51,231 bases of DNA from NCBI GenBank assembly GCA_001567085.1, contig LMZS01000101.1, positions 1-51,231 on the forward strand, in the 5' to 3' direction. A program made the translations under genes and the position numbers. Of this stretch, positions 41,372 through 51,211 are shown one piece after another (position 1 is the first letter of the stretch; each line of letters starts with the position of its first letter). Origin of the DNA: Chloroflexi bacterium OLB15 (lineage in GTDB: Bacteria > Chloroflexota > Anaerolineae > Aggregatilineales > Phototrophicaceae). The notes beneath the pieces are model-generated. The model worked only from the letters and a program-made list of their open reading frames with translations, made no database searches and was not told the origin of the DNA.

Positions 41372-42658
41372 CTAACGCGCCTGAAAGATGTTTAGCGGAT
41401 TCATGCTGTAACCGGGAAAAACCTGATCAATGGCGGAATTACCTAACCGCTTGATCAAAATTTCGCTCAACACGTCCCGGTAATCGGTCGTCACCGCCAG
41501 CGCACTATCATCCAGCACATCGCTGCCAAGCCCTACCCAACGCCCATACATCCCGCTGGTTATGCCGCCGCCCATGACCATCATCACATTGCCATGACCG
41601 TGATCGGTTCCGGCGCTGGCATTTTCATCAACCCGGCGGCCAAATTCGCTCATCGTCACCACCGTCACGCCAGACATATAATCCTGCATATCGGTGTAGA
41701 AAGCGGCCAACCCCTGCCCAAGATCACTCAGCAGCGAGGCAAATTCACCTTCAGCGCCGCCCTGCGATTCGTGCGTATCCCAACCACCAATATCCACTGC
41801 CGCAACCTCAAGCCCGACATCCGCTTTGATCAACTGTGCAACTTGCTGAAGCCCTATCCCGAAAGCACTTTCGGGATAAGCCGCCCCATATGCCGGTGTA
41901 TAATCCAAGTTCGACATCTGGCTTAATAAATTCACGGTGTCAAAGACTTCGGAAGCCTGCGCGCTGAGCAAGTCTGCGGGCGCAGTGATGTTATACAAGC
42001 CGGCAATTGTGCGCGATACCGCCTCCAATTGATCATCCCTGCCCTGCAAATGGAAGTCAGCAATTGACTGTAAAGCCAATGCAGGCGCCATACCGCGCAG
42101 CGATCCCTGTACCATCGCGCCAATGCCCACCGCCCGGAACGGCGAGTCGTTCTGCCACGCCGCAGAAAGCAGATGGCGGTTAATCCAGCCTGCCGCTGTT
42201 GAGCGATCTCCCGGCGTCCCCCGTTCCATATACTCCATTGCGTCAAAATGCGAACGTGTTGGATCGGGCGATCCGGCGCCGTGTATCAACCCCAACGATC
42301 CCGCGTCCCACACATCTTTCAAGGGTCGCAGCGCAGGATGTAAGCCAAAATGCCCGTCAAGATCAATCGCCGCAAGCGCGCTGCCATCCGGTTCAGGAAT
42401 GGCAATCGTTGGGCGGCGATCATAGTACAAACTGCCCTCACCAAACGGAATCACCGCATTCAGGCCGTCCATACCGCCGCGCTGAAAGATAGCAACCAGC
42501 ACATCGCGTTGGCCGGGAGCATTATTCTGATAGCGTGGAGAAAATACCAATCGGGGCATCCAACCGGGGTAAAGCGTGCTGCTCACACCAACAATACCCA
42601 GATGGCCGAAGGAGCGCAGAAGCTCGCGCCTGGATTTTAAGGTTTGCAAATTCATCAT
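41372..42658 (-). CDS. DUF1501 exported protein
   Basis: This 428-residue protein has a twin-Arg-like N-terminus (SRRELLRSFGHLGIVG). DUF1501 features are AIFQRGGMDGLNAVIPFGEG, the FGLHPALRPLKDVWDAGSLG segment, GSPDPTRSHFDAMEYMERGT, DIGGWDTHESQ and TMSEFGRRVDENASAGTDHG, with the phosphatase-like metal residues of the sulfatase/alkaline phosphatase-related fold. Its partner DUF1800 is always or often next door in bacteria, and their joint role outside the membrane is not established. The gaps to both neighbours are 10-11 bases. Confidence 0.88.
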   Translation of the reverse strand: MMNLQTLKSRRELLRSFGHLGIVGVSSTLYPGWMPRLVFSPRYQNNAPGQRDVLVAIFQRGGMDGLNAVIPFGEGSLYYDRRPTIAIPEPDGSALAAIDLDGHFGLHPALRPLKDVWDAGSLGLIHGAGSPDPTRSHFDAMEYMERGTPGDRSTAAGWINRHLLSAAWQNDSPFRAVGIGAMVQGSLRGMAPALALQSIADFHLQGRDDQLEAVSRTIAGLYNITAPADLLSAQASEVFDTVNLLSQMSNLDYTPAYGAAYPESAFGIGLQQVAQLIKADVGLEVAAVDIGGWDTHESQGGAEGEFASLLSDLGQGLAAFYTDMQDYMSGVTVVTMSEFGRRVDENASAGTDHGHGNVMMVMGGGITSGMYGRWVGLGSDVLDDSALAVTTDYRDVLSEILIKRLGNSAIDQVFPGYSMNPLNIFQAR

Positions 42659-42669
42659 TTACGCTCCAA

Positions 42670-44178
42670 TCAATGCCACTGAAATTGTGGTGAAGCTAGC
42701 AGCAAGCCGACCAGTGTTGGCAGTTTATCTATCCGGGCTTCTTGCGAAAGCGGGGTGGTTGGGTTGCCATCATCCGCCACAAAAGCGGTCAACAGCTCAA
42801 TATCGTCCCGCGAAAGCCGTTCGGCTGTGCCGAGAATTGCGGATGCTGCGTTGCCCACGAGTTGAAGCGCGTTGGCAGCAGGCGGAACAATCGCGTTCAG
42901 ATCAAGCGAAATATCGTCCCACCAGCCTTCGCTGGCATACGGAAAGCCCAACGCCAGATTCCACCGGTTGAGCAGGCCGTTGGTATTCAACCACGCGCCC
43001 GCAGCATCCGGGAAACCATTCGGCGGATGCCAGTTGTATGGCAGTTGCCCCAGGTCTTCCAACGACCAAACCAGATACGGCCGCGCGCCAAATTCCAGAC
43101 CGGGACGCAGCGCCCGCAGCATCGCCACCATAAAATCAATCGGCCGGCGGAACTTTTGCCCTTGCGACGCTGCAAACTGCGGCGATGTCAAAATGTGGCG
43201 CATGGTTTCGCGTATATCACCCGCGCTGCCCAGAAAAGTTGCTGCCGCGCTCTCAATCAATTCTTGCGGCGGCTGATCGCTCACAAAGCGGCGCACCAGT
43301 TTCTGAGCGATAAATCGGGCGGTTGAGGGGTGCGTTGCCAGAATATCCAATACCTGTAGCCCGTCTTCTATCCCGCGTCCGGAAGGTAAAACGTGGCCTA
43401 AAACGTGCTTCTCATCGTAATCATGTACGCTGCCATCGAAGTAAAATGAGCCGGCGCCGTTTGCAGTATCCGCCACCGTCCAGCCTGTCAAAGCGCGGGC
43501 AACGGCGCGCACATCCTGTTCGGTGTAGCCGCCATTCACGCCCAGCGTATGCAGTTCCATCACTTCGCGGGCATAATTCTCATTCGGGTGTTCAGCTACG
43601 CTCTCAGCATTATTCAGGTAATAGAGCATGGCCGGGCTTTGGGCAGAGGCAAACAGCAGATCGCGAAAATTGCCCAGCGCGTGGCGGCGAATTACTTCGC
43701 GATCATCCACAATCTTTTCGCCCATGTTATCGCCAGCGGGCACATTAAAATGATCCGTCCAGAATTCGACCATTAATTCAAACAACTGGCGTTCGCTATA
43801 GGCAGCGCGATAGATTCGCTGCCAGGGAACGATGGTATAGACATAATCATCTTCGTATGCGCGGTTGTAAATTTCCCGCGCAGAGCCTGCCAGATAATCA
43901 AATTTGCTCAGCCACTCATCTACAAGCGGATCAGGAATGGTTTCAGGAGAAAGCTGCCAGTCAATATAGGCTTCCACGCCCATTTCCTGTATACGTTCAA
44001 CATCTGCGGCCATTGGCCCCCATGTGACACGGCTAAGCACATGCCAGCTTGGATCGCCCTGCGAGATACCTTCCTGGGCGCGTACTTTTGCCAACCAACC
44101 AACATTGCTGGCAGCTAAGGCGGCCAGCCCTGTAAGTTTGAGCATGTCCCGTCTGGAAAATTGTTGCATAAGTTCCAT
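42670..44178 (-). CDS. DUF1800 exported protein
   Basis: From ATG 44178 this is a 502-residue protein with a Tat-like signal (FSRRDMLKLTGLAALAASNV). ATG 44169 is an equal alternative; the frame is open to 44247, but those extra residues would precede the signal peptide. Family features are HVLSRVTWGPMAADVERIQ, the YFLELMVEFWTDHFNVP-like segment ELMVEFWTDHFNVPAGD, NYAREVMELHTLGVNGGYTE, HDYDEKHVLG and QFAASQGQKFRRPIDFMV. The role of DUF1800 is unknown; with DUF1501 it forms a very common bacterial pair. It is first in the operon. Confidence 0.88.
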   Translation of the reverse strand: MELMQQFSRRDMLKLTGLAALAASNVGWLAKVRAQEGISQGDPSWHVLSRVTWGPMAADVERIQEMGVEAYIDWQLSPETIPDPLVDEWLSKFDYLAGSAREIYNRAYEDDYVYTIVPWQRIYRAAYSERQLFELMVEFWTDHFNVPAGDNMGEKIVDDREVIRRHALGNFRDLLFASAQSPAMLYYLNNAESVAEHPNENYAREVMELHTLGVNGGYTEQDVRAVARALTGWTVADTANGAGSFYFDGSVHDYDEKHVLGHVLPSGRGIEDGLQVLDILATHPSTARFIAQKLVRRFVSDQPPQELIESAAATFLGSAGDIRETMRHILTSPQFAASQGQKFRRPIDFMVAMLRALRPGLEFGARPYLVWSLEDLGQLPYNWHPPNGFPDAAGAWLNTNGLLNRWNLALGFPYASEGWWDDISLDLNAIVPPAANALQLVGNAASAILGTAERLSRDDIELLTAFVADDGNPTTPLSQEARIDKLPTLVGLLLASPQFQWH

Positions 44179-44587
44179 CCCCGGTTTCTTCCACCCAGAT
44201 CGCACTATAGATCGAATTTCAAAGCGCGCAAGTACGCCAAAAGTCACCCTCTATTTTTAGATGCGTTGTTTTCTCTGGGTAAATCCCCGATCAACTTGAA
44301 ATCGCCCATACAGGCCGCGACGAACATGTTAATATCTCTACCGATCAGCAGGACGTGTTCCTGATCGCTCACAATCACGCGGATCGTTATCCTTGTTTTA
44401 TTATATGGGCTGTTCTGGCGTGGGGCTTATAATCCACATCACAGTCGAAAAGCTGTAAACATATTTTCCAGAGAGGTGTTCAACTTTAGCGAAGCAAAAA
44501 TCAAGCGAGCGTTTAGCGCTGTCGCCAGTTCAACATTGCTTATTCAGCATCAATATGAGCAACCGCCCCAAAACAGGAAGGCAGTTT
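44179..44587. other. Divergent intergenic region of DUF1800 and GH20 genes
   Basis: About 400 bp hold no convincing gene. On the - strand TATAGT (+ 44204-44209) with TTGCGC 16 bp upstream (+ 44226-44231) is a plausible DUF1800 promoter. On the + strand TATAAT at 44428-44433 lacks a good -35. A short palindrome AACATGTT lies at 44323-44330. Small frames here look like shadows. Confidence 0.35.
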
Positions 44588-48781: not shown

Positions 48782-50566
48782 TCAACCGAATCTGACAGTT
48801 CCGGTCAGCACCAGCACGCCAAACACGAGCGCAGCGAAAAAGACCAGCATCGTAAGCAGAATGATAATCCGCACAATCACGGGTGGCTGCTTACGCTTCT
48901 TTTGAACAGGTTGCGCCGCTTGCTGTTGGTAAACCTGAGCGCTGTTGAATTCCATCATCGTGAAATTACCTGCGCCCTGCTGATAATTTTGCTGCGGCGC
49001 CTGCATTTCCATCATCGTAAAGCTGTCCGGCTGGTAAGCCGCAGGGCGTGACGGCGCTTGCATCTCCATCATCGTAAAATCTGCCCCACCGCCCGCCGGT
49101 GTTGGTGGCGGCGGGTACGCCGGGCGCATCGGTTGGGGCGGCGCATTTTGAGCCGGCGGAGCCACGCTGTTGAACTCCATCAACGTGTAATTCGGGTCTG
49201 GAGTCGGCGCTTGCGCTGGCGTTGGTGGGCGCGGTGCCGCTGGTTGGGCAGGCATCGGCGGCGTTGACGGGAAAGAAAATTCCAACTCCGTCTTATTTCC
49301 GGCCGATTGTGCTGGCGCGGAACTTACGGGCGTTTGCGACGACGTATCAAAGTTGAAGTCGAGTTCAGTTTTATCTGGTATTGGTGCGTTGGGATGCTGG
49401 CCACGATTCGCCAGCGAATCATAAGGCACCGTTTTCACATCAATCTCAAGCTCGGTATGCTGCCCTACAGGTGCCTGAGGCGGCGGCTGCGGAGGAAATG
49501 CAACTGGCGCAGGTGGCTGCGCAGCAGAAGCAGCAGGCAGTACTGTGGTTGGCGCATCCAGTGGCGCTGAAGCAGCAGGCGGGGATGGTACAGGTGCTGG
49601 CTTTGGTTCAGGGGCAGGCGTCGGAATCGGCGGCGTAGATTTCATCCGCTCTTGCACATCTGCCACTGAAAGCATCATCGTCGGCACGTAATCATCATCT
49701 GCCGTGCTGGTTGAGGTTGGATAAACAGCCGCCCGCAGGTCACGAACAAAGTCCCGCAGGTCGCCATATCGGGTTTCACGTTCGCCAATCGCCTTTGAGA
49801 ATACGCGATCCATCTCTTGTAAATTCGCGGAGCGCAAATCAGCAGGCAGTTCATTTGGCGGAATTTTTGACGGCCAGCGCCACTTCCCTGTTGTAATCCG
49901 TTCGTAGGCAATGTACTGGTTATAAATCTGATCGGTTGGATTCCAGATGGCATGCCTGCCGAAAACAATTTCGTAGGCAACCAGCGCAAACCCAAAGTTA
50001 TCCGCGAGCAAATCAGCCTGACCATCTGGGGACATATACAGCGTAGTGCCGATAAAGCGCTGGGTTGCTTCGGCTTCACGCTGATCCAGCGAAATGCTGA
50101 AATCCAGTAAATACGGATTTTCGATGCCCGTGATATTTGAGGGTTTCAAATCACGGTGAATCACCCCCGCCTCATGCGCCGCTTGCAGCGCAGACGCCAG
50201 TTCCCGTACCAGATCCATGCGCCGTTCCAGCGGGATGCGCAGCATCTCTCCGTTGGCGATCAGCTTATCATAGGTATCACCACCCACATAACGCATCACG
50301 ATATAGGGGCGTGCATAATCAAGATCGTAGTCGTAAAGCGCGGGGATATTCGGATGCTGTAGCTTTTGCATCGCCTCGACCTCGCGCAGCATACGTTCGC
50401 GGTGTTTCGCAACGTTAGCGCTGGTCATCAGCGTTTCGTTCATAAATTTAATGGCGACAGTTTTGAAGGGATCGTAAGCCTTCCAAACTTCTCCTGATGC
50501 GCCGCGACCAAGTTGTCGCTCCAGCGTGTAGTTTTTGATTTTTACGCCGGGTTGTAGATCAACCAT
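48782..50566 (-). CDS. Tail-anchored Ser/Thr protein kinase with repeated T-x-x-E/D motifs
   Basis: This 594-residue protein has a kinase domain at about 12-280: glycine loop GRGASGEV (20-27), Lys40 (AIKF), HRDLKPSN (137-144) and Asp155 in DFS rather than the usual DFG, with GTTLYMSPD as the activation segment end. A Pro/Ala-rich linker (about 310-555) follows, holding seven T-x-x-E/D motifs at T371, T400, T426, T461, T498, T517 and T536. KKRK precedes a single membrane helix (about 562-588), and only VRFG-like residues remain outside. There are no PASTA or other sensor domains. It is 27 bp downstream of an FHA protein gene. It probably autophosphorylates and recruits that protein; this is inference. 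Confidence 0.88.
   Translation of the reverse strand: MVDLQPGVKIKNYTLERQLGRGASGEVWKAYDPFKTVAIKFMNETLMTSANVAKHRERMLREVEAMQKLQHPNIPALYDYDLDYARPYIVMRYVGGDTYDKLIANGEMLRIPLERRMDLVRELASALQAAHEAGVIHRDLKPSNITGIENPYLLDFSISLDQREAEATQRFIGTTLYMSPDGQADLLADNFGFALVAYEIVFGRHAIWNPTDQIYNQYIAYERITTGKWRWPSKIPPNELPADLRSANLQEMDRVFSKAIGERETRYGDLRDFVRDLRAAVYPTSTSTADDDYVPTMMLSVADVQERMKSTPPIPTPAPEPKPAPVPSPPAASAPLDAPTTVLPAASAAQPPAPVAFPPQPPPQAPVGQHTELEIDVKTVPYDSLANRGQHPNAPIPDKTELDFNFDTSSQTPVSSAPAQSAGNKTELEFSFPSTPPMPAQPAAPRPPTPAQAPTPDPNYTLMEFNSVAPPAQNAPPQPMRPAYPPPPTPAGGGADFTMMEMQAPSRPAAYQPDSFTMMEMQAPQQNYQQGAGNFTMMEFNSAQVYQQQAAQPVQKKRKQPPVIVRIIILLTMLVFFAALVFGVLVLTGTVRFG
48947..49456 (-). repeat. Seven T-x-x-E/D motif repeats in the kinase linker
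   Basis: Residues 371-540 of the kinase hold TELEI, TELDF, TELEF, TLMEF, TMMEM, TMMEM and TMMEF, separated by 19-37-residue Pro/Ala/Gln-rich spacers. The last four copies also share near-identical DNA (CATCATCGT on the + strand within a longer repeat). The first three (TEL[ED][IF]) and last four (T[LM]ME[FM]) form two subtypes. Confidence 0.8.
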
Positions 50567-50593
50567 CCTTCTTCCTTCATGCCTACGTGAACA

Positions 50594-51211
50594 CTAAAGC
50601 TGTGTAACGGATGAGCGCGCCTCGCAAGGCAAGATGAACCGTGCGCGTACTCCATTACCGAATTGAACAATATCGCCGTTATACAGGCGCTCCTCGCGGT
50701 TCGGCTGCAAGCGAGTAACCATGCCATCAGGCATCACTAACGATGTGCCGAACGAGCTGCCAAGATCGGAAATATAGAACTCACGTGTTGCCGGGTTAGC
50801 GCGAAACTGGGCATGACGGCGTGACACGCTCTTTTCGTCCATGCCAATCTGAATATTCTGCTCAGGGGCATAAAACCGCCCCAACAAAAACATATTGCCC
50901 GGCAGCGGGTATTCCTGTAGCGCAGGCAGCCCGGAAATAATCGCCATGCGCGCGATGCCGTCAGCAGGTGGCATAATCGGCGCATAAGCGGGCGCAGCGG
51001 GCATCGGCGGCGGCGCGGCATACGCAGGCATTGGCGGCGGCGCAGAAACTGGTGCAGGCGCAGACATTACCGGCGCAGATGACGCGCGCGATGTAGTGGT
51101 CTGTTCATGATTACGAACGGGAAGAATTGTAAGCAAAATCCACCACAGCAGCAGCAAAATACAGATCGCTGCTGGAACTGCGGGAATGATCCAGATCATA
51201 GATGGATCCAT
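50594..51211 (-). CDS. Membrane-anchored FHA-domain protein
   Basis: This 205-residue protein has an N-terminal membrane helix (about 6-30), a Pro/Ala-rich linker (45-85) and a C-terminal FHA domain (about 100-195). FHA contact residues are present: G111-R112 (LLGRF), S130-RR-H133 (SVSRRHAQF) and LGSSFGT at 150-156, where Phe replaces the Asn of the common NGT. FHA domains bind phosphothreonine peptides. The basic residue after the helix suggests N-out, with the FHA domain in the cytoplasm. It is the first visible gene of the unit and ends 27 bp before the kinase start. Upstream sequence is cut by the window edge. Confidence 0.88.
   Translation of the reverse strand: MDPSMIWIIPAVPAAICILLLLWWILLTILPVRNHEQTTTSRASSAPVMSAPAPVSAPPPMPAYAAPPPMPAAPAYAPIMPPADGIARMAIISGLPALQEYPLPGNMFLLGRFYAPEQNIQIGMDEKSVSRRHAQFRANPATREFYISDLGSSFGTSLVMPDGMVTRLQPNREERLYNGDIVQFGNGVRARFILPCEARSSVTQL

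Follow-up and report, generated by a model that had tools for sequence, protein, structure and literature searches.

A multisite threonine-motif kinase tail encoded with FHA proteins and an eCIS-lineage contractile injection system: a candidate TPP-like switch in Chloroflexota

Control of a contractile injection machine by threonine phosphorylation is known from type VI secretion, where the TPP pathway (PpkA/PppA/Fha) has an FHA protein dock on phosphorylated TssL at the membrane, via TssL-pT14 in Agrobacterium (PMC5995506). Docking of an FHA domain onto many sites of a kinase has been described for the eukaryotic MST1/2 proteins, whose linker carries seven autophosphorylated T-M motifs; several of these bind the FHA domain of SLMAP redundantly, and SLMAP is itself tied to a phosphatase (PMC5663475). 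For contractile injection systems (CIS) of the eCIS lineage, CisA in Streptomyces is a recent case of how particles inside cells reach the membrane: CisA recruits the cytoplasmic CIS to it (PMC12237407). The tCIS of Anabaena, in turn, is anchored at the thylakoid (PMC8894136). In their main text, PMC12237407 and PMC8894136 name neither a kinase nor FHA. A survey of eCIS mentions histidine kinases and GerE regulators, with FHA absent, and a search of the open-access literature for CIS together with forkhead-associated or FHA returned no relevant paper. Here, we describe a kinase/FHA gene pair of a Chloroflexi bacterium that combines features of these systems.

The kinase/FHA gene pair and its threonine array

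The window, meaning the whole stretch of 51,231 nucleotides analysed here, is the complete contig G000:C101, and its end falls just 20 bp before the start of the FHA gene. An earlier note had pointed to a kinase gene paired with an FHA gene at this place; both open reading frames are found there, on the minus strand with a gap of 27 bp (Table 1), and both products score above the Pfam cut-offs (Pkinase, 1.4e-30 and 107 bits; FHA, PF00498, 1.2e-11 and 45.2 bits against a cut-off of 20.7). A second pair of adjacent genes at window positions 41372-44247, which we take to resemble a DUF1501/DUF1800 pair, stays near the kinase/FHA locus in the sister genome G010 and in G011.

In its structure model, the FHA partner has an N-terminal transmembrane (TM) helix, then a linker that is disordered and an FHA domain modelled with confidence, in agreement with its description as a membrane-anchored protein. 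Its fold matches the FHA domains of MDC1, OdhI and DgcB among structural neighbours. By sequence, the best PDB match of the family is SLMAP (6e-9), a similarity at the level of the FHA domain only, and the score against the OdhI model NF041660 is 26, with a cut-off of 200. The GR (111-112) and SxxH (130-133) signatures of the FHA domain, noted earlier as intact, are present, and the phosphothreonine-pocket residues G111, R112, S130 and H133 are invariant in 22 orthologues. In the S-x-N-G-T loop, the orthologues of the partner have Phe or Tyr (SSFGT, SSYGT) in place of Asn; this loop Asn is usual in FHA domains rather than universal, NBS1 being a binder with Tyr at that position.

The kinase scores 130 bits against the PknB/Stk1 PASTA-kinase model NF033483, below its cut-off of 450, and the match ends at residue 309; with PASTA repeats absent, membership in the PASTA kinases is ruled out. 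Beyond the catalytic domain, residues 287 to 559 have pLDDT values mostly below 50 in the AF2 model and are thus predicted to be disordered, and a predicted TM helix follows, in keeping with the docking tail that had been supposed. Within it lie seven copies of T-x-[LM]-[ED]-[FMI], at residues 371, 400, 426, 461, 498, 517 and 536, exactly the array that the earlier note had read (Table 1). Composition-shuffled tails hold a mean of 0.19 copies, and none of 5000 shuffles reaches seven. Two further conserved threonine motifs of the tail, KTVPYDS and TMMLSVAD, differ in pattern from the array.

Table 1. Position of the gene pair and of its domains and motifs in the window
Feature	Position	Strand	Basis
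Ser/Thr kinase of 594 aa, with catalytic domain, disordered tail rich in Pro and Ala, and TM helix at the C-terminus	48782..50566	-	ORF, Pfam, structure model
C-terminal TM helix of kinase, residues 563-587	48806..48880	-	structure model
Motif copy 7, TMMEF	48947..48961	-	motif scan and sister comparison
Motif copy 6, TMMEM	49004..49018	-	motif scan, DNA pattern and sister comparison
Motif copy 5, TMMEM	49061..49075	-	motif scan, DNA pattern and sister comparison
Motif copy 4, TLMEF	49172..49186	-	motif scan and sister comparison
Motif copy 3, TELEF	49277..49291	-	motif scan and sister comparison
Motif copy 2, TELDF	49355..49369	-	motif scan and sister comparison
KTVPYDS, another conserved motif of the tail, immediately following copy 1	49415..49435	-	in 5/5 array orthologues
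Motif copy 1, TELEI	49442..49456	-	motif scan and sister comparison
Degenerate copy TMMLS (in DYVPTMMLSVAD)	49667..49681	-	kept in G010, G011 (TQMLSVAD) and G008 (TMMMEAV)
Pkinase domain, residues 13-235	49862..50530	-	Pfam; has HRDLKPSN and the Lys of VAIK, with DFS in place of DFG
Membrane FHA protein, 205 aa	50594..51211	-	ORF, Pfam, structure model
C-terminal T-Q-L-COOH of FHA protein (ends V-T-Q-L)	50597..50605	-	T-x-[LFM]-COOH in 16/22 orthologues
FHA domain, residues 88-193	50633..50950	-	Pfam and confident model
N-terminal TM helix of FHA protein, residues 5-29	51125..51199	-	structure model

Selection on the array and its distribution

Comparison with G010 separates the motifs from the sequence around them. 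Amino-acid change is nearly as slow in the motif codons (pN 0.046, pS 0.83) as it is in the kinase domain (pN 0.043, pS 0.59), whereas the tail spacers (pN 0.287, pS 0.50) change some six times faster than the motif codons; these values are simple counts, with synonymous sites partly saturated. All seven array threonines are conserved in G010. The motif is kept while the spacers drift, the contrast that the earlier note had proposed to look for in homologues. Slippage is able to make motif copies, as seen in the orthologous kinase of G008, where a recent 66-nt tandem duplication is present in 2.7 copies, and this would be the source of the array if it were a neutral low-complexity expansion that resembles FHA ligands by chance. 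We consider such an origin highly improbable, because the motif codons have accepted many synonymous changes and yet evolve as slowly as the kinase domain, because copy number and spacing vary among orthologues around a constant motif, and because no tandem repeat at the DNA level was found in the array stretch of the window. With no DNA repeat behind it, the likeness of the copies is due to selection and not to a duplication in the recent past. On these sequence comparisons, the array is a real, selectively maintained feature.

The array is also specific to this kinase. None of the genome's other kinases (about 22 in all) has a comparable tail, which rules out a motif general to the kinases of this genome, and a search with the DNA pattern for [FY]-T-[ML]-[ML]-E-[FM] returns this kinase as the sole match in four of five array genomes; in the fifth, G011, the pattern also matches a PAS sensor protein and a protein resembling lysyl-tRNA synthetase, which we take as chance. 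The five array orthologues together hold 35 copies (7, 7, 5, 7 and 9), including one copy in G008 with Gln at +3, with the consensus [ND]-[FYKR]-T-[ME]-[ML]-[ED]-[FMI] and a spacing of 17 to 86 residues. At position 0, the 34 acidic copies have Thr without exception and never Ser, with the two residues about equally common in the array tails (84 Ser, 79 Thr); the binomial p of 2e-11 for this rule is indicative only, since the copies of one genome, like those of related genomes, share a history. FHA domains are specific for phosphothreonine, and a Thr-only position is what would be expected if such domains read the array.

Within the GTDB family of this bacterium, 22 of 98 genomes have a member of the FHA-partner family, and none was found in the rest of the order or in a class sample of 396 genomes. 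Among the 22 pairs, which were collected by searching for the FHA protein and then examining the adjacent kinase, five have the array, one a looser array, six one or two copies, nine none, and one is truncated. The five array kinases form one clade (support 99/98). The looser array belongs to G022, of the sister group (kinase at L041:4646-7129), with six T-x-[VIL]-[ED] copies (TPVD, TPLE, TIVE, TPVE, TLIE, TVLE), and is perhaps a related or a parallel array. Short tails with one or two T-x-L-E-like copies are found in G034, G019, G085, G086, G078 and G035; single [FY]-T-x-L-E copies persist in the short kinase tails of other genera, and such forms are more widespread than the array. Most of these genomes are draft MAGs, and absences as well as linkage are accordingly data of lower quality. 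The FHA partner is retained in all 22 pairs, array or not, and hence the array is not its universal ligand. The proposal of a docking tail has fared unevenly: it is supported by an array that is under selection and Thr-only, by a tail predicted to be disordered and by a membrane-anchored partner, but the role of the array as the ligand of this particular FHA partner is weakened, most pairs having zero to two copies and nine of 22 keeping the partner with no motif at all, the very situation that had been named as speaking against it.

A contractile injection system with several FHA proteins

The gene order beyond the contig end can be followed in the genome itself and in its relatives. Contig C126 of the same genome, 3 kb long, shares an exact overlap of 46 bp with the end of the window. 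On it lie a divergently oriented gene for a PP2C phosphatase and the larger part of a vWA-TM-FHA gene, the vWA label coming from reading the sequence and not from a Pfam match. This copy of the vWA-FHA gene (L144, G000:C126, 3-1723) is distributed over two overlapping frames, perhaps through misassembly or a frameshift. In the relatives, the divergent genes encode, in order, PP2C, vWA-TM-FHA, a double-FHA protein, an AAA+ ATPase with a WHD domain (PF22977) and the CIS. By Pfam, the latter comprises sheath, gp19 tube, CIS_tube, spike, Baseplate_J, FHA-Tail_P2_I, eCIS_core and a second FHA kinase; this eCIS-lineage gene set is present at L136 of G004, and a homologous cluster lies on contig C96 of our genome, with the AAA+ gene at its end. 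A type VI secretion system was considered and rejected: the sheath is of PF04984/PF17482, eCIS_core and CIS_tube are in the cluster, and no Tss membrane complex was found among the cluster proteins scanned.

Among the 98 family genomes, the FHA partner is present in 21 of the 24 with an orthologous sheath and in one of the 74 without (Fisher p 3e-17, uncorrected for phylogeny). In G004, G010, G011, G022, G027, G071 and G086, a distance of about 8 to 13 kb on a single contig separates the FHA gene from the sheath; in G089 it is about 27 kb, and in G070 the two are on different large contigs. A Ser/Thr kinase, a PP2C phosphatase and an FHA protein thus share a cluster with the machine, a gene content like that of TPP, and the kinase/FHA pair belongs to a putative CIS control module that also includes the phosphatase and a minimum of three further FHA proteins, any one of which might read the array. 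The array is dispensable for the module as such, since the nine pairs without any motif in the kinase tail keep both the FHA partner and the CIS.

One of these FHA domains is fused N-terminally to the Tail_P2_I baseplate wedge protein (L136:13062-14393, L143:1065-2468, L173-L177). If found with arrays only, it could have been named as their reader; this was rejected, as the fusion occurs in all CIS of the group examined, with and without arrays, and in other Chloroflexota families too, so that co-occurrence singles out no reader. At the end of the CIS cluster stands the second kinase with an FHA domain (L136:15403-18477, L139:13690-16617, L135:1-1626); its G004 copy also has TSP3 repeats and an SH3 domain, and its G011 copy has a single FTQLE near the FHA domain.

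A proposed phosphothreonine switch and its relation to known systems

The array is not the only place where the module presents a threonine in this context. The C-termini of the FHA-partner family include VTQL, MTRL and ATRF, and the vWA-TM-FHA protein ends in [KR]-T-[NDQ]-[LF]-COOH in 12 of 12 cases (for example at L032:9139-11310, L036:9689-11890 and L041:9128-11371). A T-x-[LFM] end is found in 22 of the 333 non-overlapping ORFs in these regions, of which 21 encode the FHA partner or vWA-TM-FHA. We infer that T-x-[LFM]-COOH is equivalent to the internal T-x-[LM]-[ED], with the terminal carboxylate replacing the acidic side chain, which suggests a threonine code shared by the C-terminal and internal motifs. 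Elsewhere in the genome, the zinc-ribbon FHA proteins L057, L060 and L063 carry TRQL, TRAL and TVLL, which likewise follow T-x-hydrophobic, between the ribbon and the FHA domain.

These ends bear on two other explanations. In the first, the tail sites form an autophosphorylation cluster that tunes the kinase or its conformation as a charge switch, the array has no FHA reader, and the FHA partner binds another phosphothreonine in the manner of GarA/OdhI, for instance its own T-x-L end or that of vWA-FHA. The T-x-[LFM]-COOH ends are indeed more universal than the array, the partner is kept without the array in most pairs, and self-ligand cases (OdhI, the DgcB tail complex and MDC1-pT4) are among the structural neighbours; still, we regard this explanation as rather unlikely, since a charge switch would tolerate Ser (34:0 in favour of Thr) and needs no tight pattern of +2 [LM], +3 [ED] and +4 [FMI] such as that of the 35 copies. 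In the second, the motif is read unphosphorylated, a PDZ-type protein collecting both the T-x-[LFM]-COOH ends and the internal T-x-hydrophobic-[DE] mimics, which would explain why one pattern covers the internal copies and two membrane-protein C-termini. T-x-[LFM]-COOH is the pattern of class I PDZ ligands, which accept Ser or Thr. Ser, however, is absent from the motif position in array tails and intact C-terminal motifs alike, no PDZ domain was found among the cluster proteins scanned, and the neighbouring kinase and phosphatase favour a phospho-switch, all of which makes a PDZ-type reader quite improbable.

The TPP-like gene content and the MST2/SLMAP precedent lead us to propose self-phosphorylation of the tail, multivalent docking and erasure by PP2C. 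The membrane-anchored kinase would phosphorylate the T-x-[LM]-[ED] sites of its own disordered tail, and probably also both membrane FHA proteins, at their T-x-L-COOH ends. The phosphothreonines would then dock an FHA domain of the module, be it that of the membrane partner, of vWA-TM-FHA, of the double-FHA protein or of the baseplate wedge, and the divergently encoded PP2C phosphatase would erase these marks. With seven copies, docking could be multivalent and the tail could act as a graded membrane assembly platform, the output being a CIS that is licensed or localised, assembled or released at the membrane. The genes, the array with its selection and its Thr-only rule, the linkage to the CIS and the FHA and PP2C content are seen directly; phosphorylation, the FHA that reads the array and an effect on the CIS are inferred, and docking of the array onto an FHA domain is plausible. 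As a whole, a TPP-like switch of an eCIS-lineage CIS, with a multisite phospho-docking kinase tail as a graded membrane platform, is the reading to which we give an even chance. We can also envision, tentatively and with doubt, that the phosphorylated tail is a membrane landing pad, where the FHA domains of the baseplate-wedge ring and of the partner bind the array, the balance of kinase and phosphatase sets whether a cytoplasmic eCIS-type particle stays at the membrane and fires, and the T-x-L-COOH ends compete or prime as ligands. The switch predicts a small threonine code across the kinase tail and the C-termini of two membrane proteins.

Among known systems, GarA and OdhI likewise join an FHA domain to a conserved Thr in the protein's own tail; here, the Thr stands at the very C-terminus, as T-x-L-COOH, and an N-terminal TM helix is added. 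The CisA and tCIS systems likewise have a particle of the eCIS lineage that is presumed to depend on attachment to a membrane, which is achieved there by CisA or by tail fibre and baseplate extensions. MST2/SLMAP (PDB 6AR0/6AR2) is closest in logic to a multisite phospho-docking tail, with repeated Thr sites in a kinase linker and a membrane-associated FHA protein; it is eukaryotic and probably of unrelated ancestry as a system, and SLMAP prefers E/D-G-pT-M-x-R/K whereas the residue at +3 is acidic here, such that the likeness would be a functional analogy and not membership, the array forming a bacterial parallel to the same logic. Like our locus, TPP of type VI secretion has the genes of a Ser/Thr kinase, a phosphatase and FHA proteins alongside those of a contractile injection machine. 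Our locus differs in that its machine is of eCIS type, with an FHA domain on the baseplate wedge and a kinase with a multisite tail. Taken together, the locus is best placed as TPP-type control attached to an eCIS-lineage machine, of which we found no description for this lineage in the open-access literature, and would extend the control of contractile machines by threonine phosphorylation beyond type VI secretion.
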